From: Cryobacterium tepidiphilum
GTDB taxonomy: Bacteria; Actinomycetota; Actinomycetes; Actinomycetales; Microbacteriaceae
Direction: 5' to 3'
Assembly: GCF_003716325.1 (NCBI RefSeq)
Contig: NZ_RDSR01000006.1
Location: forward strand, 1 to 64,000
DNA length: 64,000 bases
The notes below the pieces were generated by a model. That model saw only the letters and a program-made list of their open reading frames with translations. It made no database searches and had not been told where the DNA came from. The position numbers were made by a program, and so were the translations under genes. Positions 34,468-49,213 of this stretch are shown one piece after another (position 1 is the first letter of the stretch; every line of letters begins with the position of its first letter).

Positions 34468-35235
34468 GTGCAGGTCGTCATCCGGTCGCTCAACGTGCTC
34501 CGCCTGCTCGCCCGGACGTCGCGGGGCCTGAGCCTCGGCGAGATCGCCGAGAGACTCGAACTCCCCGGAGCGTCCGCCCACCGCCTGCTCGCCGTGCTGG
34601 AGGGCGAGGGTTTCGTCACGCGCTCCTCCGTCAATCGCCGGTACTTCCTCGGCCCGGCGTCGCGTGAACTCGCCGAGGCCGCCCAGCCTCGGCAGTCGCC
34701 GCTCGTCACCGCGCACCGCGCGATCGCCGATGCGAGCCGGGAGAGCGGCGAGACCGTGTTCCTGTGCGAGCTCACCCACGGGCGCGCCGTCTGTTCGGCG
34801 CTCACCGAGTCCCCGCACCCGCTCCGGCTCTTCGTGCGCGTCGGCCAGGATATGCCGCTGCACGCGGCGGCCTCCGCGCGCGTGCTCCTGGCCTGGCGCG
34901 ATCAAGGCGAGGTGCGGCGGATGCTCGGGGAGCAGCCGCTCCGGACGTTCACCTCGAAGACGCCCGCGTCGACCGACGAGGTTCTCGACCACCTCAGGAT
35001 CGTGCGCTCGCGCGGTTTCGACATCTGCGAGTCGGAGCTGGACGAGGACGTCTGGGCCGTGTCGGCCCCGGTGCGGACCTCGACCGACCAGGTCGTGGCA
35101 TCCGTCACCCTTGCGGCCCCGGCACAGCGGCTTCATTCCGAGAAGAACCGCACGGCGGCCGTGGCGGTCATCCGGTCCGCCGCCGCTGCCATGTCCGCGG
35201 ACCTCGGATGGGCCGGCGCTGCCGCCGTTTCGTAG
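34468..35235 (+). CDS. IclR family transcriptional regulator
   Basis: A 255-residue regulator with an N-terminal winged helix-turn-helix (about 5-65, with LSLGEIAERLELPGASAHRLL) and a C-terminal effector-binding domain (about 80-245) containing MPLHAAASARVLLAW. IclR proteins sense small organic acids and usually control adjacent catabolic genes. GAGGAGG lies before the GTG. It heads the orotate-type gene cluster, and near-identical putative operators precede both this gene and the pyrD-like gene. Confidence 0.9.
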   Translation: MQVVIRSLNVLRLLARTSRGLSLGEIAERLELPGASAHRLLAVLEGEGFVTRSSVNRRYFLGPASRELAEAAQPRQSPLVTAHRAIADASRESGETVFLCELTHGRAVCSALTESPHPLRLFVRVGQDMPLHAAASARVLLAWRDQGEVRRMLGEQPLRTFTSKTPASTDEVLDHLRIVRSRGFDICESELDEDVWAVSAPVRTSTDQVVASVTLAAPAQRLHSEKNRTAAVAVIRSAAAAMSADLGWAGAAAVS

Positions 35236-35273
35236 GCCCCGCTCCGTCCCCTTGCGTCTGCCGAAGCCGGGCA

Positions 35274-35302
35274 TTGACACGATGACGCGAGAGGCTCATC
35301 CT
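35274..35302 (+). promoter_or_regulatory. Promoter of the pyrD-pyrK pair
   Basis: A consensus -35 TTGACA (35274-35279) is followed after 17 bases by CATCCT (35297-35302). The predicted start near 35309 leaves a leader of about 30 bases containing the operator copy. Confidence 0.65.
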
Positions 35303-35319
35303 AGACGAGTACCTCCCCA

Positions 35320-35340
35320 CGGAAGCGGAGCGTTCGCCAC
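35320..35340 (+). promoter_or_regulatory. Putative IclR operator, copy 2
   Basis: Starts CGGAAGCGGAGC and ends TTCGCCAC. It matches the copy before iclR (34432-34452) at 18 of 21 bases and keeps part of its dyad symmetry. It ends directly before the ATG at 35341 and overlaps the weak ribosome binding site, so bound repressor would block transcription just after initiation. Confidence 0.6.
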
Positions 35341-36324
35341 ATGGAAACCGGACTCGTTGTCGACAAGGACGCCGGCGCGCTGGCGGACACCCCGCCGGGT
35401 CCCGGCGCCGCCGATCTCTCGATCGAACTCGGCGGGCTCCTGCTCACGAACCCCGTCATGCCGGCCTCGGGCTGCTTCGGGCCCGAACTCGCCCCGCTGT
35501 TCCCTCTCGCGGCCCTCGGTGCGGTCGTCACCAAGACCGTCTTCGCCGAGCACCGGGCGGGGAATCCCGCGCATCGGCTCACCGAAACGTCGTACGGCAT
35601 GCTCAACAGCGTCGGCATCCCGAGCCCCGGCAGCGAGAGCTTCCGAAACGGATTGCTGCGACGCTACCAGGAGAGCGGCACGCATGTCGTCGTGAGCATC
35701 GGAGGTCTGCTCACGCCCGAGTACTACACCGTGGCCGAGGACCTGGCCGAGGAAGACATCGCCGCCTTCGAGGTGAACGTGTCGTGCCCGAACCTGGAGC
35801 GCGGCGGCCTCGCGATCGGCACGTCGCCCGAGCGGGTGGCCGAGGTCGTGGCGGGCGTGCTGGAGCGCGTCAGCAGGCCGGTGTTCGTGAAACTCACGCC
35901 CACCGTCAGCGCGATCGGTGCGGTCGCGCGGGCGGCGGAAGACGCGGGAGCGGCGGCGGTCACGGTCGCCAACAGCTTCTCGGGCATGTCGGTCAACATC
36001 CACTCGCGGGCGAGCACCCTCGGCACCGGGGCCGGCGGCTATACCGGCCCAGGGATCAAGCCCCTCGCGCTCAAGCTCGTGCGCGACGCGGCCGCGGCGG
36101 TCGACATCCCCGTGATCGGCTGCGGCGGCATCTCGACGGCAGAGGATGTCGCGGAGTTCCTGATCGCCGGGGCCACCGCCGTGCAGGTGGGTACGGCGAC
36201 GTTCACGCGGCCCACGTCGATGGCGGACATCATTCGTGACCTCGGCCCACTCTGCGGCCGACTCGGCGTGAGCCGAGTGGCCGAGCTCATCGGCACCCTC
36301 GACCAGGAACCTCCGACGCGATGA
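35341..36324 (+). CDS. pyrD: Dihydroorotate dehydrogenase, class 1B catalytic subunit type
   Basis: A 327-residue FMN TIM barrel. The catalytic base is Cys149 in NVSCPN, which marks the soluble class 1 enzymes (class 2 uses serine), with Lys65, Lys184 (VKLTP) and NSFSGM near the flavin. The next gene encodes a PyrK-type electron transfer subunit, so this is the NAD-linked class 1B system. No C-terminal ferredoxin domain is present, which argues against dihydropyrimidine dehydrogenase. In Actinobacteria the biosynthetic enzyme is usually class 2 and encoded elsewhere. Here context suggests it runs in the orotate-reducing direction. The stop overlaps pyrK by ATGA. Confidence 0.87.
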   Translation: METGLVVDKDAGALADTPPGPGAADLSIELGGLLLTNPVMPASGCFGPELAPLFPLAALGAVVTKTVFAEHRAGNPAHRLTETSYGMLNSVGIPSPGSESFRNGLLRRYQESGTHVVVSIGGLLTPEYYTVAEDLAEEDIAAFEVNVSCPNLERGGLAIGTSPERVAEVVAGVLERVSRPVFVKLTPTVSAIGAVARAAEDAGAAAVTVANSFSGMSVNIHSRASTLGTGAGGYTGPGIKPLALKLVRDAAAAVDIPVIGCGGISTAEDVAEFLIAGATAVQVGTATFTRPTSMADIIRDLGPLCGRLGVSRVAELIGTLDQEPPTR

Positions 36325-37223
36325 CCGCGCAGCCGGCCGCCGCGAACCCGCGCGAGACGTGGCGGCTCGTAAAGCTGCCGCGCAACCAACGGCCCGCACC
36401 CACCGCGGGGCCGGTGCGCGTACTCGCCCACGAGCGCCTCGGCGACCGCTACATGGCCCTCACCCTCGAGGCGCCCGCGATCGCGGCATCCGCCCAGCCG
36501 GGACAGTTCGTCATGCTGACGGCCGCCCGCGCCCACGAGAACGCGCCCGCCCTGCCACGACCCATGGCCGTGTACTCCCGCGACCCCGCGGGTGGCACGA
36601 TCGAGATCCTCTACGGGGTCATCGGCGAGGGGACCCGGCAGCTGGCCGGCTTCGCGCCGGGTGAACAGATGTACGTCGTCGGGCCGCTCGGACGGTGCTT
36701 CGAGATGGGCGACTCACCAAGCGTGCTGCTCGTCGGCCGCGGCATCGGCACCTGCTCGCTGACCACCGTGGCGGAGGAGAGGGCACGCCGTGGCCTGCAG
36801 ACGATCGCCGTCACGAGCGCCCGCACGCCGGGCGCCGTGATCGGGGCCGACTTCTACCGCGACCGCGGGGCGAGCGTGGTCTACGCCGTGACCGACGAGG
36901 ACGGCAGCAGCGCGCCCGACTCCCTCTTCGACGTCCTCACGCGCGACTGGGACCACGCGCCGCCCGACGCGATCATGACGTGCGGTTCCGACCGGCTCAC
37001 CAGGCTCTGCGAGCGGCTCGGCGCCAGGTGGGGCGCCGATCTGCAGGTGTCGGTCGAGGCGCACATGGCGTGCGGGCTCGGCTACTGCCACGGATGCGCG
37101 TCCGGCGCGCGCAGCGAGGGCGACGAGAGCCCGCTGATCTGCCAGGACGGCCCCGTCTTCTCCTGGCAGCGGGGCGCCGACCTGTCCCCGGCGGCGGCGG
37201 GCGGAGCCGACGGGCAGGCCTGA
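36321..37223 (+). CDS. pyrK: Dihydroorotate dehydrogenase electron transfer subunit (PyrK-like)
   Basis: A 300-residue ferredoxin-reductase-type flavoprotein. The FAD-binding motif is RPMAVYS (about 80-86), the NAD-binding loop is GRGIGTCS (about 139-146), and the C-terminal [2Fe-2S] site is Cys251, Cys256, Cys259 and Cys274 (spacing C-x4-C-x2-C-x14-C), as in PyrK. It passes electrons between NAD(H) and the FMN of the PyrD partner. The first 30 or so residues are an extra tail. The pair is tightly coupled and separate from the downstream transporter operon. Confidence 0.88.
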   Translation: MTAQPAAANPRETWRLVKLPRNQRPAPTAGPVRVLAHERLGDRYMALTLEAPAIAASAQPGQFVMLTAARAHENAPALPRPMAVYSRDPAGGTIEILYGVIGEGTRQLAGFAPGEQMYVVGPLGRCFEMGDSPSVLLVGRGIGTCSLTTVAEERARRGLQTIAVTSARTPGAVIGADFYRDRGASVVYAVTDEDGSSAPDSLFDVLTRDWDHAPPDAIMTCGSDRLTRLCERLGARWGADLQVSVEAHMACGLGYCHGCASGARSEGDESPLICQDGPVFSWQRGADLSPAAAGGADGQA

Positions 37224-37284
37224 CCATCCGGCCCAGGTTGCCGAGGCGGTGCCGACTCGCGTTCGCGCTCTTGCGGAGGGCGGC

Positions 37285-37290
37285 TAGAGT
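37285..37290 (+). promoter_or_regulatory. -10 box (TAGAGT) of gntR
   Basis: TAGAGT lies eight bases before the ATG at 37299, giving a leaderless or nearly leaderless message and a promoter separate from pyrDK. Confidence 0.5.
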
Positions 37291-37298
37291 CTGGTGCT

Positions 37299-37958
37299 AT
37301 GACAGATCTACTGCGGCACACTCCGGGGAAGGAGTCGCTCTACGCCCAGCTGCGCACAGCGGTCTTCAACGGCGAGTTCCGCCCGGGCACCATTCTCGTC
37401 GAAGCCGCGGTCGCGGAGTCGTACGGCGTGAGTCGTACGCCCGTGCGGGAGGCATTGAGGGCGCTCGAGAAGGACGGCATCCTCCAGTACCGCGGGCGCC
37501 ACCTGATGGTGCGCGTCACGACGCTCGAGGAGGTCATGGAGATCTATGACTGCCGCATCGTGCTGGAAGGCACCGCCGCGGGCTGGGCGGCTCGGGCGCG
37601 GACCGACAACGACCTGGTGCTGCTCGAGCTGGCACTGAACGAGATGGTCAAGGCGGCGGACTCGTCGCCGTATGAGCAGGCCTCGGTGAACCACGCCTTC
37701 CACGATCGCCTCTGGCGGGCGAGCCACAACGCCACTCTTGTCGACCTGCTCTCCCGCCTCGAGGTGCACATCCGCCGCTACCCGGAACCGACCGTCAGCC
37801 GCCCGGGGCGGTGGACGCACGTGCTCGAGGAGCACGCCGCGATCATCGAGGCGGTGCGCAGCCAGAACGAGGAGGAGGCCGCCCGGCTGGGCCGCGAACA
37901 CATGGCGATCGCCCGCGATCTCAGGCTTCGGATGGTGAGGGAGAGCCAGCCGAAATAG
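37299..37958 (+). CDS. GntR family regulator, FadR/FCD subfamily
   Basis: A 219-residue regulator with an N-terminal winged helix (about 10-75, with SYGVSRTPVREALRALEKDG) and an all-helical FCD effector domain (about 80-210) holding likely metal-binding His residues, for example in NHAFHDRLW. FCD proteins bind carboxylates and repress adjacent catabolic operons. A TGTATACA palindrome, the usual operator type for this subfamily, overlaps the -10 box of the next operon, its likely target. Confidence 0.9.
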   Translation: MTDLLRHTPGKESLYAQLRTAVFNGEFRPGTILVEAAVAESYGVSRTPVREALRALEKDGILQYRGRHLMVRVTTLEEVMEIYDCRIVLEGTAAGWAARARTDNDLVLLELALNEMVKAADSSPYEQASVNHAFHDRLWRASHNATLVDLLSRLEVHIRRYPEPTVSRPGRWTHVLEEHAAIIEAVRSQNEEEAARLGREHMAIARDLRLRMVRESQPK

Positions 37959-37983
37959 CCCTGCGGGAATCTTCCCGAATACC

Positions 37984-38013
37984 TTGACTGCCCATCGCGT
38001 ACCGTTGTATACA
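37984..38013 (+). promoter_or_regulatory. Promoter of the ABC transporter operon with GntR-type operator
   Basis: TTGACT (37984-37989) is followed after 18 bases by TATACA (38008-38013). The 8-base palindrome TGTATACA (38006-38013) coincides with the -10 box and has the shape of GntR/FCD operators, so bound repressor would block polymerase directly. Confidence 0.65.
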
Positions 38014-38058
38014 TTTAACGCAGGGATGCCCCTGGCACCACGATGGAGAGGTGAAGGT

Positions 38059-39336
38059 ATGTTCAACGATGCACTTACGACTTCCAAGCAGCACTCGGCC
38101 AGGCGCGTGGCTTGGCGGGTCGCGGCGGTGGGCACAGCCCTCGCCCTGACCCTCACGGGTTGCTCGTCAGGCGGCGGAGACAACAGCAGCGGCAATGGTT
38201 CCAAGAACGTCAAGGTCGACGAGGTTCGGCTTGGCACGATTCTTCCGCTGACCGGTTCCACGGCACAGAACGGCAACAACTCCTTGCACGGCATCGAGCT
38301 TGCCGTCGAGCAGATCAACGCGGCCGGCGGCATCAAGTCGATGGGCGGCGCGAAGATCAAGCTGTCCACGGCGGATGCGACGAGCGACGCGGCCAAGGCG
38401 GCAAGCGCGGCCACCCAGTTCCTGTCGAAGGGCGAACCGCCCCTCGCCATCGTGGGTGCGTACGCGAGCGGCCTGACCATCACGGTGGCGCGCGTCACCG
38501 AGCGCGCCAAGGTGCCGCTGCTGAGCACCGGCTTCGCCGACGAGCTCACCCACCAGGGCTACAAGTACTTCTTCCAGCTGCCGCCGGCCTCGTCGCTCAT
38601 GGGTGCCGCGCAGTTCAACTACGCGATCGACATCGCCAAGGACGCCGGCAAGAGCATCGACAAGGTCGCCATCGTCTACGCGAACAACGCGTACGGCGAA
38701 TCGCAGGCGAAGGCGCTCAAGGCGCAGGCTGACAAGGCCGGCAAGACGGTCGTGCTCAACGAGGGCTATTCCCCGAACATCACCGACGCCGGCCCGATCG
38801 TCTCGAAGATCGTCGCGTCCAAGCCCGACGCCATCTACTCGATCGCCTACGTGCCGGACTCGGTGCTGCTGATGCGCGCGCTCAAGGCGCAGGGCAGTGA
38901 CGTGCCGATCTTCGGCGGCACCGGCGGGTACATCACCCCCGACTTCGTCAAGGCCCTCGGCGACCAGGTGAACGACGTGTTCAGCATCACGACGAGCAAC
39001 CCCGACGGCTACGGCGACATCGGTGCGGCGTACCTCAAGAAGTACGGCGAGTTCATGCCGCAGGAGGCACACGACAACGCTGCTGCCGTCTACGTCTTCG
39101 CCCAGGCGCTCGAGGAGCACCCGACGACGGACTCGACGGATCTCGCGAAGTACCTGCACGAGGGCAAGTTCGACCAGGGCGCGGCGGCTTCGATGCCCGG
39201 CGGTTTCGTCGACTTCGACGAGACCGGCGTGAACGTGAACGCCAAGCCCGTGATGGTGCAGTGGCAGAACAAGAGCCTGATCGGAGTCTGGCCCGCCGAC
39301 ATCGTCAAGGGCAAGCCAGTCTGGCCCGGCCAGTAG
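38059..39336 (+). CDS. ABC transporter substrate-binding lipoprotein (LivK type)
   Basis: A 425-residue extracellular solute-binding lipoprotein. The signal peptide ends in the lipobox LTGC, with lipidated Cys35. The mature part has the type I periplasmic binding fold of the branched-chain amino acid/amide family (LGTILPLTGSTAQNGN, then GIELAVEQINAAGG). The family also binds urea, amides and aromatic acids, so orotate or an ureido compound is possible. The ATG at 38059 follows GAGAGGTGAAGG. It is the first gene of an eleven-gene operon. Confidence 0.9.
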   Translation: MFNDALTTSKQHSARRVAWRVAAVGTALALTLTGCSSGGGDNSSGNGSKNVKVDEVRLGTILPLTGSTAQNGNNSLHGIELAVEQINAAGGIKSMGGAKIKLSTADATSDAAKAASAATQFLSKGEPPLAIVGAYASGLTITVARVTERAKVPLLSTGFADELTHQGYKYFFQLPPASSLMGAAQFNYAIDIAKDAGKSIDKVAIVYANNAYGESQAKALKAQADKAGKTVVLNEGYSPNITDAGPIVSKIVASKPDAIYSIAYVPDSVLLMRALKAQGSDVPIFGGTGGYITPDFVKALGDQVNDVFSITTSNPDGYGDIGAAYLKKYGEFMPQEAHDNAAAVYVFAQALEEHPTTDSTDLAKYLHEGKFDQGAAASMPGGFVDFDETGVNVNAKPVMVQWQNKSLIGVWPADIVKGKPVWPGQ

Positions 39337-39361
39337 GCGCGGCGGAGTCGGATATCAATCC

Positions 39362-40261
39362 ATGGACATCCTGAATCACGTTGCGCAATCGGTCGCGAAC
39401 GGCCTGCTCATCGGAAGCGTGTATGCGCTGATCTCGGTGGGACTGACACTGATCTTCGGTGTCATGAACATCGTGAACTTCGCCCACGGCGAGTTCCTGA
39501 TGGTGGGCATGTTCGGCGCCTACTTCGCCAGCACGGCGTTCGGCCTCGATCCGCTGTGGATCGCGCCGCTGATCGGCATCGCGGGATTCCTGCTGGGCGC
39601 CTTGGTGGAACGGACGATCATCGAACCGATAATCAAGGCGCCCCAGTCGGCACAGATCATCGCCACCGTGGGCCTCGGCATCATCCTGGCCAACGGGGCG
39701 GCGGCGATATTCGGCAACAACTTCCTGAGTGTGAAGACGCCCTACCAGGGCGAGACGTTCTCGCTCTTCGGCCTGCACTTCGCCGCGACCTTCGTGTACG
39801 CCGCCGCGTACGCGGTCGTCATGGCGGTGTTGCTCGCACTGTTCCTGAACAAGACCCGCTTCGGCAAGGCGATGCGGGCGACCGCGCAGAACCGCGGTGC
39901 GGCCCAGCTGCTCGGGATCGACCCCAAACGGATGTACATGGTCGCGTTCGGCCTCGGCGTGGCGCTCGTCACGCTGGCCGGCTCGGTCATCCTCCCGTAC
40001 ACGCTCGTCTACCCGTTCATCGGCCAGCAATACGTGCTGATCATGTTCACGGTCGTCGTGCTCGGCGGGCTCGGCTCCATCCGCGGGGCGATCATCGCGG
40101 GGCTCGTGGTAGGCGTCATCCAGTCGCTCTCCACACTCCTGCTGCCGAGCGAGCTTCAGAATCTGCCCGTGTTCATCGTCTTCTTCATCGCGCTCGTTTT
40201 GATCTCCGGGGGGGTGCTCAGTCGTGTCCGTAACGCGTCCGTCAAGCTCAAGCGCAGCTAG
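39362..40261 (+). CDS. ABC transporter permease (LivH type)
   Basis: A 299-residue inner-membrane permease with about eight helices. It has the LivH opening segment NGLLIGSVYALISVGLTLIFG and the conserved MNIVNFAHGEFLMVG, with GLGSIRGAIIAGL towards the C-terminus. It pairs with the LivM-type permease to form the import channel. It starts 25 bases after the lipoprotein gene. Confidence 0.92.
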   Translation: MDILNHVAQSVANGLLIGSVYALISVGLTLIFGVMNIVNFAHGEFLMVGMFGAYFASTAFGLDPLWIAPLIGIAGFLLGALVERTIIEPIIKAPQSAQIIATVGLGIILANGAAAIFGNNFLSVKTPYQGETFSLFGLHFAATFVYAAAYAVVMAVLLALFLNKTRFGKAMRATAQNRGAAQLLGIDPKRMYMVAFGLGVALVTLAGSVILPYTLVYPFIGQQYVLIMFTVVVLGGLGSIRGAIIAGLVVGVIQSLSTLLLPSELQNLPVFIVFFIALVLISGGVLSRVRNASVKLKRS

Positions 40262-41252
40262 TTTCGTGAGGTCGCTGCCCACGTCCCGCCCCTGGCGGAT
40301 CGCCTTCTACCTCGTGGCGCTCGCCGCGCTCTTCCTCGCCCCGGTGTACCTGCAGAGCAGTTACAGCGTGCGGATCCTCGTGCTCGTCTGCCTGTTCGGC
40401 GCGGCATCCACGGGGTGGAACCTCATCGGCGGCTATGCCAACCAGATCTCGCTGGGCCACACGGTCTTCTTCGGGATCGGCGCATACGCGACGGTGATCT
40501 TCCAGGGCACGCTCGGGTTGAGCCCGTGGCTGGCGATCCCGACGGGCATCGTGCTCGCCGTGATCGTGGCGCTCCTGATCGGCTGGCCGACGTTCCAGCT
40601 GTCTGGGCACTACTTCGCCCTGGCCACCCTGGCGCTGCTGCCCGTGTTCCACATCATCGCAACGTACTGGGAGGATCTCACGGGCGGGTCGGTCGGCATC
40701 TCCGTGCCGATCCTGCCGTCCGGGCTCGACACGCTGCAGTTCGACACCCCCACGCCGTTCTTCTACATCGCGGCGGTGCTGCTGGTGCTCGTCATGATCC
40801 TCGCCCGGTGGGTGCGCCAGTCGGTGCTGGGCCTGCAGCTCGACGCGATCCGGCTCAACCCGCAGGCGTCGACCCTCGCGGGGGTCAACCAGTTCCGGGC
40901 GAAGATGAAGGCGCTCGTCATGAGCGCCGCGGTGGTCGCCGTGGCCGGTTCGCTCTACGGAGCCTTCCTGCAGTTCATGGACCCCGACACCGCCTTCTCC
41001 TGGAACACGACGCTGAACCTCGTCCTGTTCGCGATGGTCGGCGGGGTGCGCTTCTGGTGGGGCCCGGCCCTCGGCGCCCTGATCCTCATTCCGTTCGGGG
41101 AGTTCGCGTCGGCCCAGCTCACCGGCAACCTCGCGGCCCTCGGCCAGCTGGCGTACGGCGTGCTGCTGATCCTGCTCGTGCTGTTCCAGCCGCGCGGCAT
41201 CGGCGGACTGTTCTCGATTGTGTGGCAGAAGGCGACCGGGAGGAAACTGTGA
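40224..41252 (+). CDS. ABC transporter permease (LivM type)
   Basis: A 342-residue permease with the LivM signature YANQISLGHTVFFGIGAYAT and about nine helices. The frame opens at a GTG at 40224, overlapping livH by 38 bases. Another GTG at 40266 would avoid the overlap and cannot be excluded. The stop overlaps the next gene by GTGA. Confidence 0.91.
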   Translation: MSVTRPSSSSAASFVRSLPTSRPWRIAFYLVALAALFLAPVYLQSSYSVRILVLVCLFGAASTGWNLIGGYANQISLGHTVFFGIGAYATVIFQGTLGLSPWLAIPTGIVLAVIVALLIGWPTFQLSGHYFALATLALLPVFHIIATYWEDLTGGSVGISVPILPSGLDTLQFDTPTPFFYIAAVLLVLVMILARWVRQSVLGLQLDAIRLNPQASTLAGVNQFRAKMKALVMSAAVVAVAGSLYGAFLQFMDPDTAFSWNTTLNLVLFAMVGGVRFWWGPALGALILIPFGEFASAQLTGNLAALGQLAYGVLLILLVLFQPRGIGGLFSIVWQKATGRKL

Positions 41253-41968
41253 GCGCGATACTGAGGGTTCAGGACCTCTCGCAACGCTTCGGCGGACTGC
41301 ACGCATTGAAAGATGTGAGCTTCGACATCATCGACGGTGAGATCCTCGGAATCATCGGCCCGAACGGTGCCGGCAAGTCCACCTTGTTCAATGCGATCGT
41401 CGGGGTCGTCCCGCCCATCTCCGGGCACGTTTGGTTCAAGGACGAAGACCTCGTCGGGGTGCCGCCGCACGAGGTCATGGCCAAGGGCGTCGCGAAGACC
41501 TCGCAGAGCGTGCAGGTCTTCGACGAGATGAGCGTGCTCGACAACGTCGCCGTGGCGGCCCTGTTGAAGAACGACTCGATCAAGTCCGCCCGGGAGGCGG
41601 CGCGTGGTGAGCTCGAGTTCTGGGGATTGCAGTCCTTCGCCGACGTGATCGCCCAGGACCTCACCCTGGCGCAGCGCTCCACGCTCGAGCTGGCCCGCGC
41701 GATGATGCTGCATCCGGCCGTGCTGCTCGTGGACGAGGTGATGGCGGGCCTCAACGAGGTCGAGGTCGACCAGATGCTCGACCGCATGATGCAGGCCAAC
41801 CGGGAACGCGGCGTGACCCTCATCGTCATCGAACACAACATGAGGGCGCTGATGCGCATCTCACACCGCATCCTGGCCCTCGACTACGGCGCGGTCATCG
41901 CCCTCGGCGAACCCGCCGAGGTCAGCAAGAACCAGCGCGTCGTGGACGCCTACCTGGGGGTGGAGTAA
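41249..41968 (+). CDS. ABC transporter ATP-binding protein (LivG type), unusual signature
   Basis: A 239-residue ATPase with Walker [10 protein letters not shown], Walker [11 protein letters not shown] and the switch histidine in IEHNM. The ABC signature, normally LSGGQ or a LivG variant such as LPYGAQ, reads LTLAQR here, which lacks both glycines. Motifs otherwise match LivG. With LivF it would energise import. GGGAGGA precedes the GTG start. Confidence 0.9.
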
Positions 41969-42675
41969 TGGGTCTCGAGATCACCGACCTGCAGTCCGGT
42001 TACGGCAACATCGAGGTGCTGCACAAGATCTCCCTCGCAGTGGATGACGGCGACTACGTCGCCGTGGTGGGGGCGAACGGGGCCGGAAAGACGACCCTCC
42101 TGAAGTCCATCTCGGGAACGGTTCGCGCCAAGGGCGGGTCGATCGTGTTCAACGGCAACGACCTGCTCGCCAGGCCCGCGCACAAGGTGCCGCAGCTGCT
42201 GATCGCCCACGTCCCCGAAGGCCGGCAGATCTTCCCCGAGCTGAGCGTCTACGACAACCTCATGGCCGGCGCCTGGCTCGTGAAGGACAAGGACCAGCGC
42301 GCGCAGACCCTCGGCGAGGTGTACGACCTCTTCCCCCGTCTCAAGGAGCGCAGCGGCCAGATGGCCGGCACCCTCTCCGGCGGCGAGCAGCAAATGGTCG
42401 CGGTGGGCCGCGCGCTGATGCTGCGGCCCAAGCTGATCATGCTCGACGAGCCCTCCCAGGGCCTCGCGCCCAAGCTGGTCACCGAGATGTACCAACAGCT
42501 CGCCGAGGTGCACGGGCTCGGTACGAGCGTGCTCCTGGTCGAGCAGAACACCACCGCGGCCCTCAAGTACGCCAAGCGGGCGTACGTCATGGAGCAGGGC
42601 CGCATCACGATGAGCGGGTCGTCCGAGGAACTGCGCGGCAGCGAAGAGATCCGCAAAGCATATCTAGGGATATAG
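41968..42675 (+). CDS. ABC transporter ATP-binding protein (LivF type)
   Basis: A 235-residue ATPase with Walker A GANGAGKTT, the canonical signature LSGGEQQM, Walker B LIMLDEPSQG and the switch histidine position occupied by Gln in LVEQNT, as usual in LivF. It overlaps the preceding gene by one base (TAATG). It completes a LivKHMGF-type importer. Confidence 0.93.
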   Translation: MGLEITDLQSGYGNIEVLHKISLAVDDGDYVAVVGANGAGKTTLLKSISGTVRAKGGSIVFNGNDLLARPAHKVPQLLIAHVPEGRQIFPELSVYDNLMAGAWLVKDKDQRAQTLGEVYDLFPRLKERSGQMAGTLSGGEQQMVAVGRALMLRPKLIMLDEPSQGLAPKLVTEMYQQLAEVHGLGTSVLLVEQNTTAALKYAKRAYVMEQGRITMSGSSEELRGSEEIRKAYLGI

Positions 42676-42679
42676 AAAA

Positions 42680-44077
42680 ATGAGACTACTGGTCAAGAAT
42701 GGTTCCGTCGTCACCCCGGATGGCGTGCAGGAGGTCGACGTTCTCTGCGAGAACGGCACGATCGCGGCCTTGCTCGAGCGTGGCTTCGAGGTCGACGCCG
42801 ACGAAGTGGTCGACGTCACCGGCCAGCTCGTCTTCCCCGGCTTCATCGACCCGCACGTGCACTCGCGCGACCCCGGCCTCACCGAGAAGGAGGACTTCGC
42901 GCACTCCACCCTCGGCGCGCTCACCGGCGGGGTCACGACGATCCTCGAGATGCCCAACGCGATCCCGCCGGTCGACTCGGCGGACATGTTCCGCCAGCGC
43001 CGCGAGCACCATGAGCAGGTGGCCTGGGTCGACTTCGGCCTCTGGGGCATCGCGATCGGGGACAGCAACCTCGACGAGATCGGCCCGATGTTCGCGGAGG
43101 GTGCGGCGGCGGTCAAGCTGTTCTGGGGATACGCGCTGCGCAAGGACACGAAGCAGCTCGTCTACAACATGGGTGACGAGCCACCGGAGAACCTGATCCT
43201 TCCGCCCGAGAACGGCGGGGTCCTGCGGATCTTCAAGGCAGTCGCCGCCGCGGGCGGCCTGCTCGGCGTGCACTGCGAGGACCGCGACATCCTCGCGGCC
43301 AGCGAGGAGGAGCTCGGTCATCCGATCGAATCGTACGATGACCTGCTCGCCGCACGCCCCGCGATCGCCGAGGCGACCTCCATCGCGGTCGGCGCGCAGT
43401 TCTCGAAAGCGACCGGCTGCCGCTTCCATGTCGTGCACATGGCGTCTGAAGCCGGCGCCGACGTGGTGCGCGCGGCGCAGGACGAGGGCCTGCCCGTCAC
43501 CGCGGAGACCTGCCCGCAATACCTGTCGCTGAGCGCCGAGGACTACGAGCGGATCGGTCCGATGATGAAGGTGTACCCGCCCATTCGTGGCGTGGAGAAT
43601 CAGGAGTCGCTGTGGGAGGCGGTGAACGACGGCACGATCGTGTCGATCGGCTCTGACCACGCACCGCACACCGTCGAGGAGAAATCGCAGCCGCTTGCCA
43701 CCCAGCCTGCCGGTGGGGTGGGCTGCGAGACCTTCGGCCCGGTCATGCTCGACCAGATGTTCAAGGGCGGCACGACCCCGGAGCGGTTCGCCGAGGTGAT
43801 GTCGACCTCGACGGCCAAACTGTACGGACTCTACCCGCGCAAGGGCGCGATCCTGCCGGGCAGCGACGCTGACCTCACCATCGTCGATCCGGAGGCGACG
43901 TGGACGGTGCGTAACGAGGAGCTGGTCGCGAAGCAGCCGACGAGCGCCTGGAACGGCTTCGAGCTGAAGGGCATGCCGACCACGGTGATCCTTCGCGGCG
44001 AGGTGGCCATGAAGGACCGCAAGCCGGTCGGGGAACGCCGCGGCCGTTTCGTCGCCGCCCGGCACGACTCCGAGTAG
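42680..44077 (+). CDS. Dihydroorotase-like cyclic amidohydrolase
   Basis: A 465-residue enzyme of the dihydroorotase/allantoinase/hydantoinase superfamily. Metal ligands are His59 and His61, carboxylated Lys146 (AVKLFWGY), His198, His253 and Asp326 (GSDHAPH). Arg63 in DPHVHSRDPG and Asn93 in MPNAIPP correspond to the dihydroorotase residues that hold the substrate carboxylate. Allantoinases usually have Asn at the Arg position. I therefore favour hydrolysis of dihydroorotate to N-carbamoyl-L-aspartate, which fits the PyrDK and carbamoylase neighbours. Allantoinase or hydantoinase activity remains possible. Confidence 0.83.
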   Translation: MRLLVKNGSVVTPDGVQEVDVLCENGTIAALLERGFEVDADEVVDVTGQLVFPGFIDPHVHSRDPGLTEKEDFAHSTLGALTGGVTTILEMPNAIPPVDSADMFRQRREHHEQVAWVDFGLWGIAIGDSNLDEIGPMFAEGAAAVKLFWGYALRKDTKQLVYNMGDEPPENLILPPENGGVLRIFKAVAAAGGLLGVHCEDRDILAASEEELGHPIESYDDLLAARPAIAEATSIAVGAQFSKATGCRFHVVHMASEAGADVVRAAQDEGLPVTAETCPQYLSLSAEDYERIGPMMKVYPPIRGVENQESLWEAVNDGTIVSIGSDHAPHTVEEKSQPLATQPAGGVGCETFGPVMLDQMFKGGTTPERFAEVMSTSTAKLYGLYPRKGAILPGSDADLTIVDPEATWTVRNEELVAKQPTSAWNGFELKGMPTTVILRGEVAMKDRKPVGERRGRFVAARHDSE

Positions 44078-44081
44078 CGTC

Positions 44082-45434
44082 ATGCCAGGGAGCCTCCTCG
44101 ACCACGCGGTCACCGTTTCCGCCGGCCTCGAGCTGGACAAGGTCCCGCCTGAGGCGCTGCGGCAGGCCGGTTACGTCATCGCAGACACCGTCGGGGTGAG
44201 CCGCGCGGGCGCCAGGCAGCCGGAGATGCGGCAGCTCCTCGAGCTGTCACGCGCCGAGGGCACGATCGGCGAGCGCGCCGCGGATGCTGCGGGCGGCGTC
44301 GCTTCCGGCCCGCAGCGTACGGCCACCGTGCTCTCGACGCCGACATCCGCGTCGACGCCGGCGCAGGCGGCCTTCCTGAACGCGACCGCGGGGAGCTTCC
44401 TCGAGCTCGACGAGGGCATGCGGCCCACCGGGCACCCCGCGATGCAGATCGTGCCGGCGGCGCTCGCCGTGGCCGAGAGCACGGGCGCGAGCGGCACCGA
44501 GCTGCTCCGCGCGGTGCTCGCCGGATACGAGGCGACGAGCCGCTTGTTCCGGGCGTTCCGCCTCCGCTACCCGGTGCATCCGCACGGTCACCTCGGAGCG
44601 ATCGGCGGCGCCGTCGCCGTCGCGCTGCTCGAGGGCACCGACCCGGTGCGCGCGGCGCGTATCGCCGGCACCACGCCGATCCTGTCCGTGTGGGACGCGT
44701 GCTACGAGGGAGCGACCGCCCGCAATACGTGGATGGGACTGGCCGCGCAGTCCGCCGTGCGGGCATCGATGCTCGACCGTGCCGGTTTCGCGGGCTCGGC
44801 GACGGCCCTGGAGGTCGCGTTCGGCCAGATCGCCGGCGAGCTCGTGGACCGGGAGGCGCTCGAGAGTCCCCTGGATTACGGCCGGCTGGGCATCCGGAAC
44901 AACTACTTCAAGCTGCACAGCGCCTGCGCGCTCTCGCACGCGGCGCTCGACGCCATGCAGCAGCTGCGCCTGCCCGCAGCGGGCGAGATCGAGAGCATCG
45001 TCGTGGAGACCGTGAGCAACAACATGAAGCTCGACCGCCAGGCGCAACCCAACGACCTGTCGGCCCGGTTCTCGCTCCCGTACGCCGTCGCCACCGCGGC
45101 GGTCGTGGGGCGGACCGACCCGGAGGCCTTCCACTACCGGCCCGACGTCGCCGAGCTCGCCAGGCGCGTCGAGGTGCGGACCGCCGACGACCTCGAGGCG
45201 AGCTGGCCGGAATCCTCCCCGGCACGGGTCACCGTGCTCACGGCCGCGGGCGTTGAGACCGCGCAGGTGCAGAACCCGCACGGCCACCACGCGGAACCCG
45301 TGACCGAGACGGAGCTTCGGGCGAAGTTCGAGGCGCTGCTGGACGACCGGCACCATGCCGCCGCGTGGTGGGAACGGCTCACGGGCCTCGGCGAGGTCGA
45401 GGACTGCTCCACGCTGTTCGGCTCGGCGAGGTGA
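44082..45434 (+). CDS. MmgE/PrpD family protein
   Basis: A 450-residue protein of the MmgE/PrpD fold, which includes 2-methylcitrate dehydratase and cis-aconitate decarboxylase. Typical segments are YVIADTVGV near the N-terminus, ELDEGMRPTGHPAMQIVPA, HPHGHLGAIGGAVAVA and NNYFKLHSACALSHAALDA. The family acts on small carboxylic acids by dehydration, isomerisation or decarboxylation. The step here is unknown. It follows the amidohydrolase gene by four bases. Confidence 0.86.
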   Translation: MPGSLLDHAVTVSAGLELDKVPPEALRQAGYVIADTVGVSRAGARQPEMRQLLELSRAEGTIGERAADAAGGVASGPQRTATVLSTPTSASTPAQAAFLNATAGSFLELDEGMRPTGHPAMQIVPAALAVAESTGASGTELLRAVLAGYEATSRLFRAFRLRYPVHPHGHLGAIGGAVAVALLEGTDPVRAARIAGTTPILSVWDACYEGATARNTWMGLAAQSAVRASMLDRAGFAGSATALEVAFGQIAGELVDREALESPLDYGRLGIRNNYFKLHSACALSHAALDAMQQLRLPAAGEIESIVVETVSNNMKLDRQAQPNDLSARFSLPYAVATAAVVGRTDPEAFHYRPDVAELARRVEVRTADDLEASWPESSPARVTVLTAAGVETAQVQNPHGHHAEPVTETELRAKFEALLDDRHHAAAWWERLTGLGEVEDCSTLFGSAR

Positions 45435-45439
45435 CGCCG

Positions 45440-46402
45440 ATGCGCATCAGCCTGCTCGCGATGGGCGGCACCATCTCGACGAACGCGGGGCCGCAGGGCG
45501 CCCTGCCGACCCTCGGCGCGGACCAGCTCGCCGGCGGCGTCGCCCACGACGGCGGGAACCTCGAGATCAGCTCGCGTGACGTGCTGAAGGTATCCAGTCG
45601 CGCGGTCACCCTGCAGAACATGTGGGACCTGGCAACGGCCGTGCGCGAGGAGATCGAAGGCGGAGCGCAGGGCGTGGTCGTCACCCACGGCACCGACACC
45701 CTCGAGGAGACCGTCTACGCCCTCGCCCTCCTCCTCGACACCCCGGTGCCGGTCGTCGTGACCGGTGCCATGCGCGTTCCCGGTTCTCCCGGTGCCGACG
45801 GGCCGGCGAATCTGGCCGGCGCGATCGCGGTCGCACGCAACCCGGAGTTCGCGGCCTACGGCCCCGTCGCCGTCTTCCAGGACGAGATCCACCTCGCCCG
45901 GTGGGTGACCAAGACGCACAGCGCGCGGGTCGCCGCCTTCACGTCGCCCGCGACCGGTCCCGTCGGCCATGTGGTCGAGGATCGCGCGGTGCCGTTCGTC
46001 GGTCCGCCCCCTGCCGGCGAGCGGCTGAGCCGCATCGCCGCGCCCGACAAGCGCGTCGAGCTGCTCTGGGGAGTCGCGGGTGCGGACGGCATGGTCGTCG
46101 ATGCGATCACCGATCGCATCGACGGACTCGTGGTCGCAGGCACGGGCGGCGGCCACGTCGCCCCGCCCCTGGCCGAGTCGCTCGTCCGGGCGGCCGACGG
46201 TGGCCTGCCGGTCGTGCTGGCCAGCCGGTGCGCGGACCCACAGGTGCTCGACCACACCTACGGCGGTGTCGGCTCCGAGGTGCACCTGCTCGCCGCCGGG
46301 CTGCACAGTGCAGGCACGTTGTCGGCGGTCAAGGCCAGGCTCCGGCTGGCGTTCGGTCTGGCCGCGGGAATTCCCGCCGCCGAGTTGTTTTCGAGAGGGT
46401 GA
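45440..46402 (+). CDS. Asparaginase-like amidohydrolase
   Basis: A 320-residue member of the bacterial L-asparaginase/glutaminase fold. It has the first threonine motif GGTIS (Thr11) and the second HGTDTLEE (Thr85-Asp86). It lacks a signal peptide, so it is cytosolic. The substrate might be asparagine or another amide produced in the pathway. The ATG at 45440 is preceded by GAGGTGA. A GTG at 45431 overlapping the previous stop is an alternative. Confidence 0.85.
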   Translation: MRISLLAMGGTISTNAGPQGALPTLGADQLAGGVAHDGGNLEISSRDVLKVSSRAVTLQNMWDLATAVREEIEGGAQGVVVTHGTDTLEETVYALALLLDTPVPVVVTGAMRVPGSPGADGPANLAGAIAVARNPEFAAYGPVAVFQDEIHLARWVTKTHSARVAAFTSPATGPVGHVVEDRAVPFVGPPPAGERLSRIAAPDKRVELLWGVAGADGMVVDAITDRIDGLVVAGTGGGHVAPPLAESLVRAADGGLPVVLASRCADPQVLDHTYGGVGSEVHLLAAGLHSAGTLSAVKARLRLAFGLAAGIPAAELFSRG

Positions 46403-46406
46403 ACAC

Positions 46407-47018
46407 ATGGCCGATCCAGCCAACGAGGTGTCGGTGAGCAAGGAACTCAAGTTCTACGACGAGAACCGGGTGCGGCTGAGCGACGTCGAGACGCTCGCCG
46501 AACTGCAGCAGGACATCCTCCGTGCCTCCTTCCAACGCGGTGCCGTACAGCTCGAGAGCGGCGTCGAGCAGCCCTATTTCTTCGAGAAGTACCTCATGGT
46601 CGCCCGGCCGACGATCCTGCGGCGCATCGCGCGATTCCTCGCGGCCCGCATTCCGGCCGGCACCGACCGGGTGGCCGCGCCGACGCTCGGCGCCGTCGCG
46701 ATCGGCACCGCCGTGTCGCTCGAGAGTGGGTTGCCGCTCGCCATCGTGCGCAGCGGACAGGGCGACAAACGGCGCGGCCGAGCGGTCGAGGGCGGACTGC
46801 ATCCGGGTGAGATCGTCGTCCTGATCGAAGACGTCGTCGTCACGGGACAACGCGCCCTGCGTGCCGTCGAGGAGCTCCGCGCCGCCGGCGTGGAGGTGGG
46901 CCTCGTCGTCAGCGTCGTCGACTGCGACCGTGGCGCCGCAGCCGAGTTCGCCAAGGCGGGCCTCGACTACGATCCGCTGTTCCGCTCATCAGTGCTGCTA
47001 CCAGAGGGAGTCTCATGA
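46407..47018 (+). CDS. pyrE: Orotate phosphoribosyltransferase-like protein, diverged loop
   Basis: A 203-residue type I phosphoribosyltransferase with orotate-type N-terminal features (SGVEQPYFFEKYL) and the PRPP motif LIEDVVVTG (139-147). The flexible catalytic loop, usually VRKxxKxHG in orotate enzymes, reads VRSGQGDKRRG. The first arginine is kept, but a lysine and the histidine are replaced. It might salvage orotate to OMP, have altered kinetics, or act as a regulatory PRTase. It is the only nucleotide-forming enzyme in the cluster. ATGA overlap with the next gene. Confidence 0.8.
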   Translation: MADPANEVSVSKELKFYDENRVRLSDVETLAELQQDILRASFQRGAVQLESGVEQPYFFEKYLMVARPTILRRIARFLAARIPAGTDRVAAPTLGAVAIGTAVSLESGLPLAIVRSGQGDKRRGRAVEGGLHPGEIVVLIEDVVVTGQRALRAVEELRAAGVEVGLVVSVVDCDRGAAAEFAKAGLDYDPLFRSSVLLPEGVS

Positions 47019-48253
47019 CCCGCGCCGATGCCGGCCGAATCGCCGCCCACCTGGAGGAACTGTCGCGGATCGGCGACGACCCACGCGGCGGCTTCTCGCG
47101 GCTGGTCTACACCGAGCCCGAACGACGGGCGCACGCCGCATTCCGAGGCTGGCTCGACGGATACGGGCTGCAGACCTCGACCGACTCGGTGGGGAACTCG
47201 TTCGGGGTGCTGCCCGGAAGTGAGGACCTGCCGTACCTGATGAGCGGCTCGCACCTCGACTCCGTCTACCAGGGCGGCAACTTCGACGGCGCAGCCGGCG
47301 TCGTCGCCGCCGTCGAGATCGCCCGCATCCTCGCCGAGGACGGGGGCCTGCGGCATCCGTTCCGGGTCGTCGCGTTCGCCGGCGAGGAGGGGGCCCGCTT
47401 CGGCGCCCCGTGCATCGGCAGCCGGCTGATGACAGGCGCGTTCTCCGAGGACACGCTCAGGCAACTGACCGACAGGGACGACGTAACGGCGTGGGATGCC
47501 GCCCGCAGCGTCGGCCTGAAACCGGAGGCCACGCACCTAGCCCGGTGGGACCCGGCCGCCGTGGCCTGCTTCGTTGAGATCCATATCGAGCAGGGTCGCG
47601 TTCTCGAGGCCAGGGACCGCCAGCTCGGTGTGGTGCACACGATCGGCGGCAGCACGCGCGTCGAGCTGACCTTCGAGGGGCGCGCGGACCATTCCGGCGC
47701 GACCCCCATGTGGCTGCGGCGCGACGCGCTCGCCGCGGCCGGCGAGTTCATCGGCGCGGTCGAGCGCCGGGCGCAGCGCCACGCGACGACCGTCGCCACC
47801 GTCGGCACCCTCGAGGTGCAGCCGGGGTCGCTCACGACGGTGCCCGGCCGCGTCGTGCTCGGCCTCGACGTGCGCGACATCGACTCCGAGCGTCAACGCG
47901 AGCTGACCGAGACCCTCCTCGACGACGCGCTGCGGATCGCGTCGGGCCGGGAAATCCAGGTGACCGCCCGGCAGCTGTCGGACCAATCGCCCGTCGTGCT
48001 GCACGGCAGCGTGCAGAACGTCCTCGCGGCCGCGGCGACACGGCAGGAACTCTCGTTCATCAGCATGGCGAGCGGGGCCAGCCACGACTCGGCCCACATC
48101 GCCAAGCAGGTGCCCACGGGGATGGTGTTCGTGCCGTGCCGGGAGGGGATCAGCCACGCCCCCGAGGAGCACGCCGAGCCCGAACACCTCGCTCAGGCGG
48201 TGGACGTCGTCGTCGACGCGTTCCGCGCCATCGACGCGGGCGCGTCGGTCTGA
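47015..48253 (+). CDS. M20 family N-carbamoyl-L-amino acid hydrolase
   Basis: A 412-residue zinc-dependent amidase of the hydantoinase/carbamoylase group. Ligands and catalytic residues are His80 (GSHLDS), Asp91, the Glu pair in AGEEGARFG, His190 (VEIHIEQG), His226 (GRADHSGATPM) and a C-terminal His in GISHAPEE. The family includes ureidosuccinase, beta-ureidopropionase and allantoate amidohydrolase. Next to a dihydroorotase-like enzyme, N-carbamoyl-L-aspartate is the likely substrate, giving aspartate, CO2 and ammonia. Confidence 0.88.
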   Translation: MTRADAGRIAAHLEELSRIGDDPRGGFSRLVYTEPERRAHAAFRGWLDGYGLQTSTDSVGNSFGVLPGSEDLPYLMSGSHLDSVYQGGNFDGAAGVVAAVEIARILAEDGGLRHPFRVVAFAGEEGARFGAPCIGSRLMTGAFSEDTLRQLTDRDDVTAWDAARSVGLKPEATHLARWDPAAVACFVEIHIEQGRVLEARDRQLGVVHTIGGSTRVELTFEGRADHSGATPMWLRRDALAAAGEFIGAVERRAQRHATTVATVGTLEVQPGSLTTVPGRVVLGLDVRDIDSERQRELTETLLDDALRIASGREIQVTARQLSDQSPVVLHGSVQNVLAAAATRQELSFISMASGASHDSAHIAKQVPTGMVFVPCREGISHAPEEHAEPEHLAQAVDVVVDAFRAIDAGASV

Positions 48254-48262
48254 GGTGGCACG

Positions 48263-49213
48263 GTGACCGTCTACCTCGACGACGAATTCGTCGGCACACA
48301 CCTCACCACGGCGGACGCTTTCGACTGCGTCGAACGCTCGTTCCGGCTCCTGGCCGACGGCTCGGCGACGAACGCTCCCCGTCGCCGGTCCCAATCCGGC
48401 ACGGCGATCCTGAACGTGATGTGGGCCCTCGCCCCGACCGAGGGCGTGATGGGCGTGAAGTCCTATCCGGTCGTGCGCACCGACGTCACCCAGGGCGCCG
48501 TGCTGACCCTGCTGCTGTACTCGATGGAGACCGGAGAGCTCCTGTCGATGATGAAGGCGGACCGGCTCGGCCAGATCCGCACCGGCGCGGCGACGGCCGT
48601 CGCCACGGTCGCGATGGCAAGGCCCGAGTCGGAGGCCCTGACGATCTTCGGCACCGGCTACCAGGCCGAGAGCCAGGTGCGCTCGCTCGTAGGCGCCATG
48701 CCGCACCTTCGAACGGTGCGGGTCGTCGGGCGGAGCGTGGCGAAGCGCGACGCGTTCATCGAGAGGATGAGCGCCGAGCTCGACCTGGAGGTCGTCGCGG
48801 GCGAGCCGGAGGCCGCGGCATCCGTTGCCGACATCATCGTCACCGCGACCGGTTCGTCTGAGCCGGTGCTGCACGGCGCCTGGCTGCGCCCCGGCACCCA
48901 TGTGAACGCGGTGGGCTCGAACGTGCTCACCAAGCGCGAGATCGACCGGGACGTGCTCGAGCGCGCCTCGCTCATCCTCGTCGACGACCGGGAGGTCGCC
49001 CGCGCGGACTGCGGCGACTTCGCCGCCAACGACTGGGACGTCGACTCGGCCGGGACGGTCGGCCAGCTGCTGACCGGGCGGATCCCCGGTCGCGGCTCGG
49101 CGGAGGACATCACGGTGTTCGAGTCGCAGGGGCTCGCCCTGCAGGACGTCGTCTGCGGGGCGCTGCTGATGTCGCGGGCGCGCGAGCGGGGGCTGGGCCT
49201 GCCGATCATCTGA
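48263..49213 (+). CDS. Ornithine cyclodeaminase/mu-crystallin family protein
   Basis: A 316-residue NAD(P)-dependent enzyme with the substrate-binding Lys66 (GVKSYP) and the dinucleotide loop GTGYQAESQ (130-138). The position of the catalytic aspartate of true ornithine cyclodeaminase (in AVGGDCPG) reads AVGSNVLTKREID here. It is therefore more like the alanine dehydrogenase or ketimine reductase branch than a cyclodeaminase. Its role in the cluster is unknown. It is the last gene of the run. Confidence 0.84.
   Translation: MTVYLDDEFVGTHLTTADAFDCVERSFRLLADGSATNAPRRRSQSGTAILNVMWALAPTEGVMGVKSYPVVRTDVTQGAVLTLLLYSMETGELLSMMKADRLGQIRTGAATAVATVAMARPESEALTIFGTGYQAESQVRSLVGAMPHLRTVRVVGRSVAKRDAFIERMSAELDLEVVAGEPEAAASVADIIVTATGSSEPVLHGAWLRPGTHVNAVGSNVLTKREIDRDVLERASLILVDDREVARADCGDFAANDWDVDSAGTVGQLLTGRIPGRGSAEDITVFESQGLALQDVVCGALLMSRARERGLGLPII

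Follow-up and report, generated by a model that had tools for sequence, protein, structure and literature searches.

Known routes of orotate use and the Cryobacterium tepidiphilum cluster

Orotate degradation is known mainly from old enzymology; in Clostridium oroticum it proceeds through a class 1B-type dihydroorotate dehydrogenase (DHODH), a dihydroorotase (DHOase), and a ureidosuccinase. The same steps are proposed here for a gene cluster in a 64-kb window (the whole stretch of DNA analyzed) on contig C28 (NZ_RDSR01000006.1) of Cryobacterium tepidiphilum, whose genome comprises 2.86 Mb in 31 contigs. The best explanation of this cluster, to which we assign a probability of roughly 0.7, is an inducible operon for the breakdown of orotate (or dihydroorotate) to aspartate. 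C. oroticum is itself listed as a class 1B DHODH organism (PMC10395836); unlike in that system, the window groups an importer, regulators, PrpD, asparaginase, OCD, and PyrE-like proteins with the pathway genes, and the activities are predicted from the genes.

Three further systems invite comparison. The PyrDK of Lactococcus lactis (1ep1) shares with the window proteins the catalytic Cys, the FMN-side Lys, the substrate Asn residues, and the [2Fe-2S] cysteines of PyrK, whereas the window PyrD carries NxxGIPS instead of NxxGLQN, falls into a separate clade, and has an M20 carbamoylase nearby. Reductive pyrimidine catabolism (PreAT, dihydropyrimidinase, and beta-ureidopropionase) likewise consists of reduction, ring opening, and decarbamoylation, but here the ring would be carboxylated, PyrDK and DHOase stand in for PreAT and dihydropyrimidinase, and the product would be an alpha-amino acid. 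The family of the TRAP orotate-binding protein 4NN3 fills the uptake slot of related proteobacterial clusters (locus L034 compared), whereas the importer in the window is LivKHMGF, another family. The pathway is thus known in kind, and its gene system was not found described in the open literature searched: among the matches listed there was no orotate-breakdown gene cluster, nor any publication on ureidosuccinase by that name, and older or subscription work may exist.

Profile scans (Pfam for the Liv genes) placed on the + strand, and where the original prediction had put them, all the genes that it had named from IclR to M20, with Cys149 of PyrD correctly recognized and the PyrK cysteines at 251/256/259/274. 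The MmgE/PrpD, asparaginase, and OCD/mu-crystallin genes had been omitted, although all 3 lie within its span. The features are as follows.

34468..35235, + strand: IclR-family regulator (PF01614 102.8 bits, PF09339 56.2)
35341..36324, + strand: PyrD, class 1B-type DHODH FMN subunit of the catabolic clade, with C149 and an NSVGIPS loop (PRK07259 314.8 versus cut-off 269; tree; residues)
36321..37223, + strand: PyrK electron-transfer subunit, Cys 251/256/259/274 (PF10418 39.5 bits)
37299..37958, + strand: GntR/FCD regulator (PF07729 96.3, PF00392 59.8)
37984..38013, + strand: promoter-like TTGACT-18 nt-TATACA, with palindrome TTGTATACA at 38005-38013, probable GntR operator (sequence search; comparison with genome G1083)
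38059..39336, + strand: LivK-type substrate-binding lipoprotein (PF13458 161.7)
39362..40261, + strand: LivH permease (PF02653 144.0)
40224..41252, + strand: LivM permease (PF02653 123.5)
41249..41968, + strand: LivG ATPase (PF00005 92.3, PF12399 31.6)
41968..42675, + strand: LivF ATPase (PF00005 106.1)
42680..44077, + strand: dihydroorotase-like cyclic amidohydrolase with R63, N93, K146, R303, D326, and H330 (TIGR00857 300.9 versus cut-off 279)
44082..45434, + strand: MmgE/PrpD-family protein (PF03972 101.1, PF19305 87.2)
45440..46402, + strand: asparaginase-family amidohydrolase (PF00710 165.6)
46407..47018, + strand: PyrE-like protein, EDVVVTG of the phosphoribosyl pyrophosphate (PRPP) loop kept, catalytic loop of orotate phosphoribosyltransferase (OPRT) absent (TIGR00336 92.2, below cut-off 106.8; alignment)
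47015..48253, + strand: M20 N-carbamoyl-L-amino acid hydrolase, proposed ureidosuccinase (TIGR01879 383.8 versus cut-off 204)
48263..49213, + strand: OCD/mu-crystallin-family protein, possibly an amino/imino-acid dehydrogenase (PF02423 187.3)
about 49368-50648, + strand: second LivK-like binding protein, possible part of the cluster (PF13458 99.0)

The genes are tightly packed, with 4-base overlaps at PyrD/PyrK, LivM/LivG, and PyrE-like/M20. G+C content falls to 0.65-0.67 across 38-44 kb, a region that takes in the importer genes and the greater part of the amidohydrolase gene, and is about 0.71-0.73 in the flanks.

A PyrD clade linked to M20 carbamoylases

The window PyrD exceeded the cut-offs of both TIGR01037 (276.9 versus 270) and PRK07259 (314.8 versus 269), and its score against PreA was only 118.1. 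Residues K65, N89, C149, N151, K184, N211, and S212 aligned with the catalytic Cys and the substrate and FMN residues. The roles of the Cys and Lys are described in PMC10395836. PyrK matched PF10418 (39.5 versus cut-off 23.9) and reached no NCBIfam PyrK equivalog cut-off (best 101.5 versus 270).

To place the enzyme, we used PyrD loci from one scan of named genome contigs, of which 80 out of 86 were kept. Of the 80 loci, 35 have an M20 carbamoylase gene near PyrD, at distances ranging from direct adjacency to about 11 kb, and the other 45 have none nearby; these groups were defined by M20 presence on contigs some of which are short, and the PyrD tree was built independently of M20. In that tree (87 sequences, rooted by midpoint only), 38 sequences fell on one side (support 100/93), 37 of them with an M20 carbamoylase nearby, versus 49 others. 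The 6 actinobacterial M20-linked PyrDs formed one clade (100/98), and the 31 proteobacterial ones formed another together with L051; the nearest neighbors of the window PyrD were those of Pseudonocardia and Micromonospora. I93 and S95, which turn the usual NxxGLQN into NxxGIPS, were present in all 37 M20-linked PyrDs and in 0 of the 49 others, the checked substrate residues being unchanged; the GIPS motif was also found in 17 of 17 additional loci and in L051. This signature flags PyrDs that may be catabolic though named biosynthetic.

The distribution of the window-type PyrD is patchy. Matches were obtained in 13 of 398 family-level genomes, source included (1e-75), in 6 of 396 order-level genomes (1e-60), and in 1 of 394 class-level genomes (1e-75), namely the source genome itself. 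The 5 non-source genomes at the order level belong to one other family, and their PyrDs fall among the tree's non-M20 sequences. On plasmids, the window PyrD had no match at 1e-50. Locus L051 (5663-14281) holds PyrDK beside xanthine-dehydrogenase-type molybdopterin and [2Fe-2S] subunits and TRAP-like genes, and its PyrDK possibly acts on another heterocycle.

Predicted ring-opening and decarbamoylating enzymes

The amidohydrolase scored above the cut-off of pyrC_multi (TIGR00857; 300.9 versus 279.05) and reached neither a dihydroorotase equivalog cut-off among the best 25 of 56 families (best 292 versus 482) nor that of AllB (338.8 versus 357.85). Ligand contacts of human DHOase are R1475, N1505, R1661, D1686, and H1690 (PMC9856072), with which R63, N93, R303, D326, and H330 of the amidohydrolase were equated by motif. 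We compared these positions in 3 alignments with the nearest solved relatives, the L-hydantoinase 1gkr and allantoinases. R303 and D326 are retained in all 3, and H330 is present in 1gkr and replaced by Ser or Cys in the allantoinases. At the position of N93, 1gkr has Ile and the allantoinases have Asn one residue further on; at that of R63, 1gkr has Ile and the allantoinases Asn or Ser. The residue-based case for a predicted dihydroorotase is accordingly carried mainly by R63. A label of allantoinase or hydantoinase was rejected because the AllB equivalog cut-off was missed and R63 differs in the relatives.

The best solved match of the M20 enzyme was the L-N-carbamoylase 3n5f (282.5 bits, versus 181.5 and below for carbamoyl-beta-alanine enzymes), and the enzyme also lay above an allantoate amidohydrolase subfamily cut-off. 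It is a candidate gene product for ureidosuccinase, and would allow genes to be assigned to the orotate breakdown pathway. The only 2 M20 carbamoylases of the source genome (1e-40) are those of its 2 PyrDK clusters, the second of which is described below. A single origin of the M20 enzymes across both phyla was considered and is not shown by the tree (69/88).

Regarding the accessory enzymes, PrpD gave low scores to its nearest matches, cis-aconitate decarboxylases and IDS-epimerase, and is retained in the closest relative G1083 and in L029 and L114-L117; the best solved match of OCD was the alanine dehydrogenase 1omo.

The PyrE-like protein and short relatives

Scored in a longer frame from 46080, the PyrE-like protein reached 92.2 against TIGR00336 (cut-off 106.8), a threshold that decides little alone, since only 10 of 14 control genomes pass it. 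The catalytic loop of OPRT reads RKxxKxxG and contains 2 Lys residues. The 2-Lys loop is absent from the window protein and 6 other PyrE-like proteins and present in the true PyrE of the source genome, L034, and L050; 1 of the 2 Lys is retained in L025, whose PyrD-PyrK-DHOase surroundings are of the non-M20 type. The window and L029 proteins retain the PRPP loop EDVVVTG; L030, L031, L115, and L116 have altered forms of it, and the second copy of the source genome (contig C22) has lost it. The PyrE-like and M20 genes share 4 bases at the start of M20, in the window as in C22. A working OPRT is rejected on residues, and the salvage of orotate to orotidine 5'-monophosphate (OMP) that the original prediction had included appears unlikely because the catalytic loop is missing.

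A family of short, degenerate phosphoribosyltransferase-like proteins (PRTb) also occurs in the actinobacterial clusters, namely in C22, L030, L032, G1083, and clusters of the family-level genomes (L020:9251-9685, L030:11923-12396, L032 at about 12240-12656, and L174:12766-13350); the 2 members scanned had no Pfam match.

Biosynthetic genes and a second copy in the same genome

The source genome holds a separate set of pyrimidine biosynthesis genes, as the original prediction had proposed to check: pyrR-pyrB-pyrC-carA-carB together with a pyrF-type (OMP-decarboxylase-family) gene on contig C26; contig C7 carries a quinone-type PyrD, and C1 a PyrE above the pyrE cut-off. The window cluster is therefore not the biosynthetic set, and the first ground that the original prediction had named for its own refutation does not apply. 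At least 1 further DHO_dh-family protein was likewise found in the source genome and in 14 of 14 (15 chosen, one without data) and 6 of 6 other genomes searched.

A diverged second cluster of the same genome lies at C22:18083-27266 (L020:1584-10767). Its PyrD, PyrK, and M20 are 49%, 49%, and 45% identical to those of the window; PyrE-like, OCD, and IclR genes are also there, along with an MFS transporter, an SDR protein, an EutA/arylmalonate-decarboxylase-like protein, and an HpaH-like hydratase. No DHOase match was found in the C22 cluster. A tRNA-Arg gene lies near it (L020:11110-11183).

Actinobacterial relatives and replacement of transporter and dihydroorotase

The closest relative found, G1083 (loci L135 and L174), preserves the window gene order from DHOase through PrpD, asparaginase, PyrE-like, and M20 to OCD at 66-86% identity (PyrD 77, DHOase 86, PrpD 66, asparaginase 73, PyrE-like 78, M20 84, and OCD 66%), which answers the question of conservation raised at the outset. 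The GntR homologues in its cluster are 75-76% identical. Whereas the window has the complete Liv importer between GntR and DHOase, G1083 has just broken LivF pieces there (L174:11358-12036), and before its PyrD stand a TcuA-type flavoprotein (550 versus 369) and a sugar-type ABC transporter. The LivF relic is the fossil of a transporter swap in which the palindrome was retained.

Other clusters carry PyrD, PyrK, M20, and a PyrC-type DHOase: L030 and L031 from Micromonospora, and L136, L138, L142, and L143 from 4 genomes of 3 other genera of the family. None of these 6 had a PrpD, asparaginase, or OCD match within the stretch examined. L029 showed no PyrK match, on a contig that begins 670 bases before PyrD. 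An IclR gene is present also in the C22 copy and in the Micromonospora and family-level clusters.

Overall, the dihydroorotase slot is filled by 4 lineages: allantoinase-like proteins in the window, L029, and L032; class I PyrC-like proteins in L136, L138, L142, and L143 (above the pyrC_multi cut-off and below equivalog; similar, unscored proteins in L030 and L031); class II PyrC in L050 and 2 plasmids; and the PRK09236 type on a P. putida plasmid (701 versus 535). The transporter slot has 5 kinds of occupants, namely Liv (window), sugar-type ABC (G1083), solute-binding family 3 ABC plus MFS (L029), MFS (C22), and TRAP (proteobacteria). That unrelated proteins fill the same slots points to a shared chemistry. 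The best solved match of the window LivK was the Leu/Ile/Val-binding protein homologue 4n0q (E 4.7e-23), and its matches do not single out a ligand.

Proteobacterial and plasmid-borne clusters

This type of cluster also occurs outside actinobacteria. The original prediction had called a complete actinobacterial cluster of this kind undescribed, and none was described among the matches listed from the open literature. A DctP-type TRAP binding protein is encoded in 27 of the 31 proteobacterial loci, PyrK in 30, PyrE in 28, and class II PyrC in 19. Equivalog cut-offs were exceeded by PyrC (413.8 versus 293) and PyrE (390 versus 245) of L050 and by PyrE of L034 (388 versus 245). The L034 TRAP binding protein, the one of the 27 that was compared, matched 4nn3 at E 3e-128 (next match 2.6e-47). 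The 4NN3 structure was crystallized with orotic acid bound (PMC11668362), and a review counts orotic acid among new TRAP ligands (PMC5812351). The proteobacterial form thus appears to be the best identifier of the substrate, and it ties an orotate-binding TRAP protein to the genes downstream in a way that can be tested. In 4 of 14 genomes searched, the PyrE of the cluster is the only PyrE found and therefore also serves normal synthesis. A small protein of about 106 residues (e.g., L034:13010-13330) ends 17 of the 31 proteobacterial clusters.

Five plasmid stretches were examined. Those of Klebsiella, P. putida, and Variovorax combine an MFS transporter with PyrD, M20, and dihydroorotase; that of Nitratireductor is of the TRAP form; and that of Agrobacterium, for which no dihydroorotase is listed, has PyrK, PyrD, and M20, with pyrF and an MFS gene close by. 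On the Klebsiella pneumoniae plasmid NZ_CP021697.1 (L130, 60745-79653), PyrD, M20, and PyrC adjoin lacY/lacZ. The L034 PyrD matches 83 plasmid records (1e-60), 53 of them from Klebsiella, for which one neighborhood was examined; of 4 Klebsiella records listed by origin, 2 came from milk or raw milk and 1 from urine. Milk is rich in orotate. In one published account of plasmid-borne lactose use in Klebsiella and one in Salmonella, the main text was without orotate terms.

A palindrome across a promoter-like site before LivK

The palindrome TTGTATACA occurs once in the 64-kb window and was absent from 100 shuffles. It covers the -10-like TATACA of the TTGACT-18-TATACA site upstream of LivK, and we take it to be of the GntR/FCD operator type. 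In 18.8 kb of G1083 it occurs twice, covering similar TTGAC-TATACA sites: one downstream of GntR, before the LivF relic and DHOase, and the other in front of the new transporter, whose leader resembles that of LivK by eye. Among 178 loci, 6 contain it, 2 of which (L135 and L174) are G1083, the other 4 being not actinobacterial clusters of this kind or having it off the cluster. A sigma-70 scan gave no promoter above thresholds; the promoter-like site emerged from the comparison of the 2 genomes. These features support local, probably inducible, control of the cluster, in agreement with the inducibility that had been predicted.

Proposed pathway and alternative explanations

Based on this comparison, we propose that the LivKHMGF-type ABC importer would bring in orotate or dihydroorotate and that PyrDK would use NADH to reduce orotate to dihydroorotate. 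The cyclic amidohydrolase, to judge from its family and substrate residues, would open dihydroorotate to N-carbamoyl-L-aspartate, which the M20 enzyme would hydrolyze to aspartate, ammonia, and CO2. GntR probably represses the LivK promoter, through the palindrome, until an inducer binds. OPRT activity is improbable for the PyrE-like protein, which would more probably be a non-catalytic partner or sensor; PrpD, asparaginase, and OCD would be accessory, and might, as a guess, handle aspartate or stereochemical clean-up. Import, reduction, ring opening, and decarbamoylation as originally predicted are thus well supported by comparative evidence, and only the salvage to OMP drops out. If the proposal is right, steps of pyrimidine synthesis are run in reverse for food, in a pathway where unrelated proteins take over the same slots and a phosphoribosyltransferase may have shifted from enzyme to binding protein. 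A wider version, which we offer tentatively and regard as doubtful, holds that a widespread catabolic DHODH branch drives orotate breakdown in actinobacteria and proteobacteria, with dihydroorotase and importer repeatedly replaced, and that the actinobacterial phosphoribosyltransferase gave up catalysis to become a partner or sensor that binds orotate and is translated together with the M20 ureidosuccinase, some genomes adding a shorter, second pseudo-phosphoribosyltransferase.

Several observations weigh against orotate breakdown by this cluster. The substrate Asn is no longer present in L051, a member of the PyrD clade that adjoins xanthine-dehydrogenase-type genes, so the PyrD of this clade can change use. 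In 5 of 5 same-genus genomes with a window-type PyrD (L139, L140, L141, L176, and L177), a hydrolase match is missing from the roughly 7.7-9.8 kb that flank PyrDK on each side, each genome holding 1 or 2 M20 carbamoylases elsewhere. In 4 genomes of one other genus (L114-L117), the 19 kb examined contain DHOase, PrpD, PyrE-like, and M20 genes and no match to either PyrD or PyrK. The nearest solved relatives of the amidohydrolase are 1gkr and allantoinases, with only R63 differing in all 3; the M20 enzymes of the 2 phyla are joined weakly (69/88); the palindrome is found, among the actinobacterial clusters examined, in the window and G1083 only; and PrpD, asparaginase, and OCD are not accounted for by the orotate pathway.

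Alternatively, the cluster might degrade a compound closely related to orotate (an amide, a D-isomer, a substituted orotate, or 5-carboxymethylhydantoin), with PrpD, asparaginase, and OCD handling the extra part. The conservation of these 3 with the core in G1083, the occurrence of DHOase-PrpD-PyrE-like-M20 without PyrDK nearby (in L115 beside deaminase-like and isoaspartyl-peptidase-like proteins), and the L-hydantoinase as top solved match of the DHOase all fit such a substrate. We nevertheless consider it improbable, given that L030, L031, L136, L138, L142, and L143 carry the core without matches to the extras in the stretch examined, and that the proteobacterial clusters have a true PyrE and, in L034, the only one compared, an orotate-type TRAP protein. 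A hydantoin or allantoin utilization operon would explain the 338.8 bits to the allantoinase model, the M20 score above the allantoate amidohydrolase subfamily cut-off, and the solved relatives of the amidohydrolase, but the allantoinase equivalog cut-off (357.85) is missed, the dihydroorotase R63 is kept where the 3 aligned relatives differ, and such a route has no place for PyrDK, which leaves it little credence.

Reductive uracil or thymine degradation by dihydropyrimidine dehydrogenase, dihydropyrimidinase, and beta-ureidopropionase follows the same order of chemistry, and some class 1A DHODH-like proteins are described as dihydrouracil oxidases (PMC10395836). It is nonetheless very unlikely here: PyrD scores 314.8 to the class 1B-type DHODH model versus 118.1 to PreA, R63, N93, and H330 of the amidohydrolase are dihydroorotase-like, the M20 enzyme is closer to L-N-carbamoylase (282.5) than to carbamoyl-beta-alanine enzymes (at most 181.5), and the partner clusters contain PyrC and PyrE. 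A spare or alternative biosynthetic operon, suggested by the names PyrD, PyrK, DHOase-like, and PyrE-like, has almost nothing to recommend it and was ruled out by the separate set elsewhere in the genome; moreover, an M20 carbamoylase and an importer are present, the PyrE-like protein is without the catalytic loop, and PyrD falls outside the other 1B PyrDs.

Neighboring genes

In the 3 same-genus genomes examined for neighbors, a pnp gene (identity scanned in one) adjoins PyrDK, and 4 further genomes of the genus are without this PyrD. In L115, the one of L114-L117 that was scanned, the cluster adjoins a deaminase-like amidohydrolase and an isoaspartyl-peptidase-like protein. In the window, the second LivK-like protein, which had no match within the G1083 stretch examined, sits between OCD and guaB (51038); it is 27% identical to LivK and may serve another ligand for the same importer.

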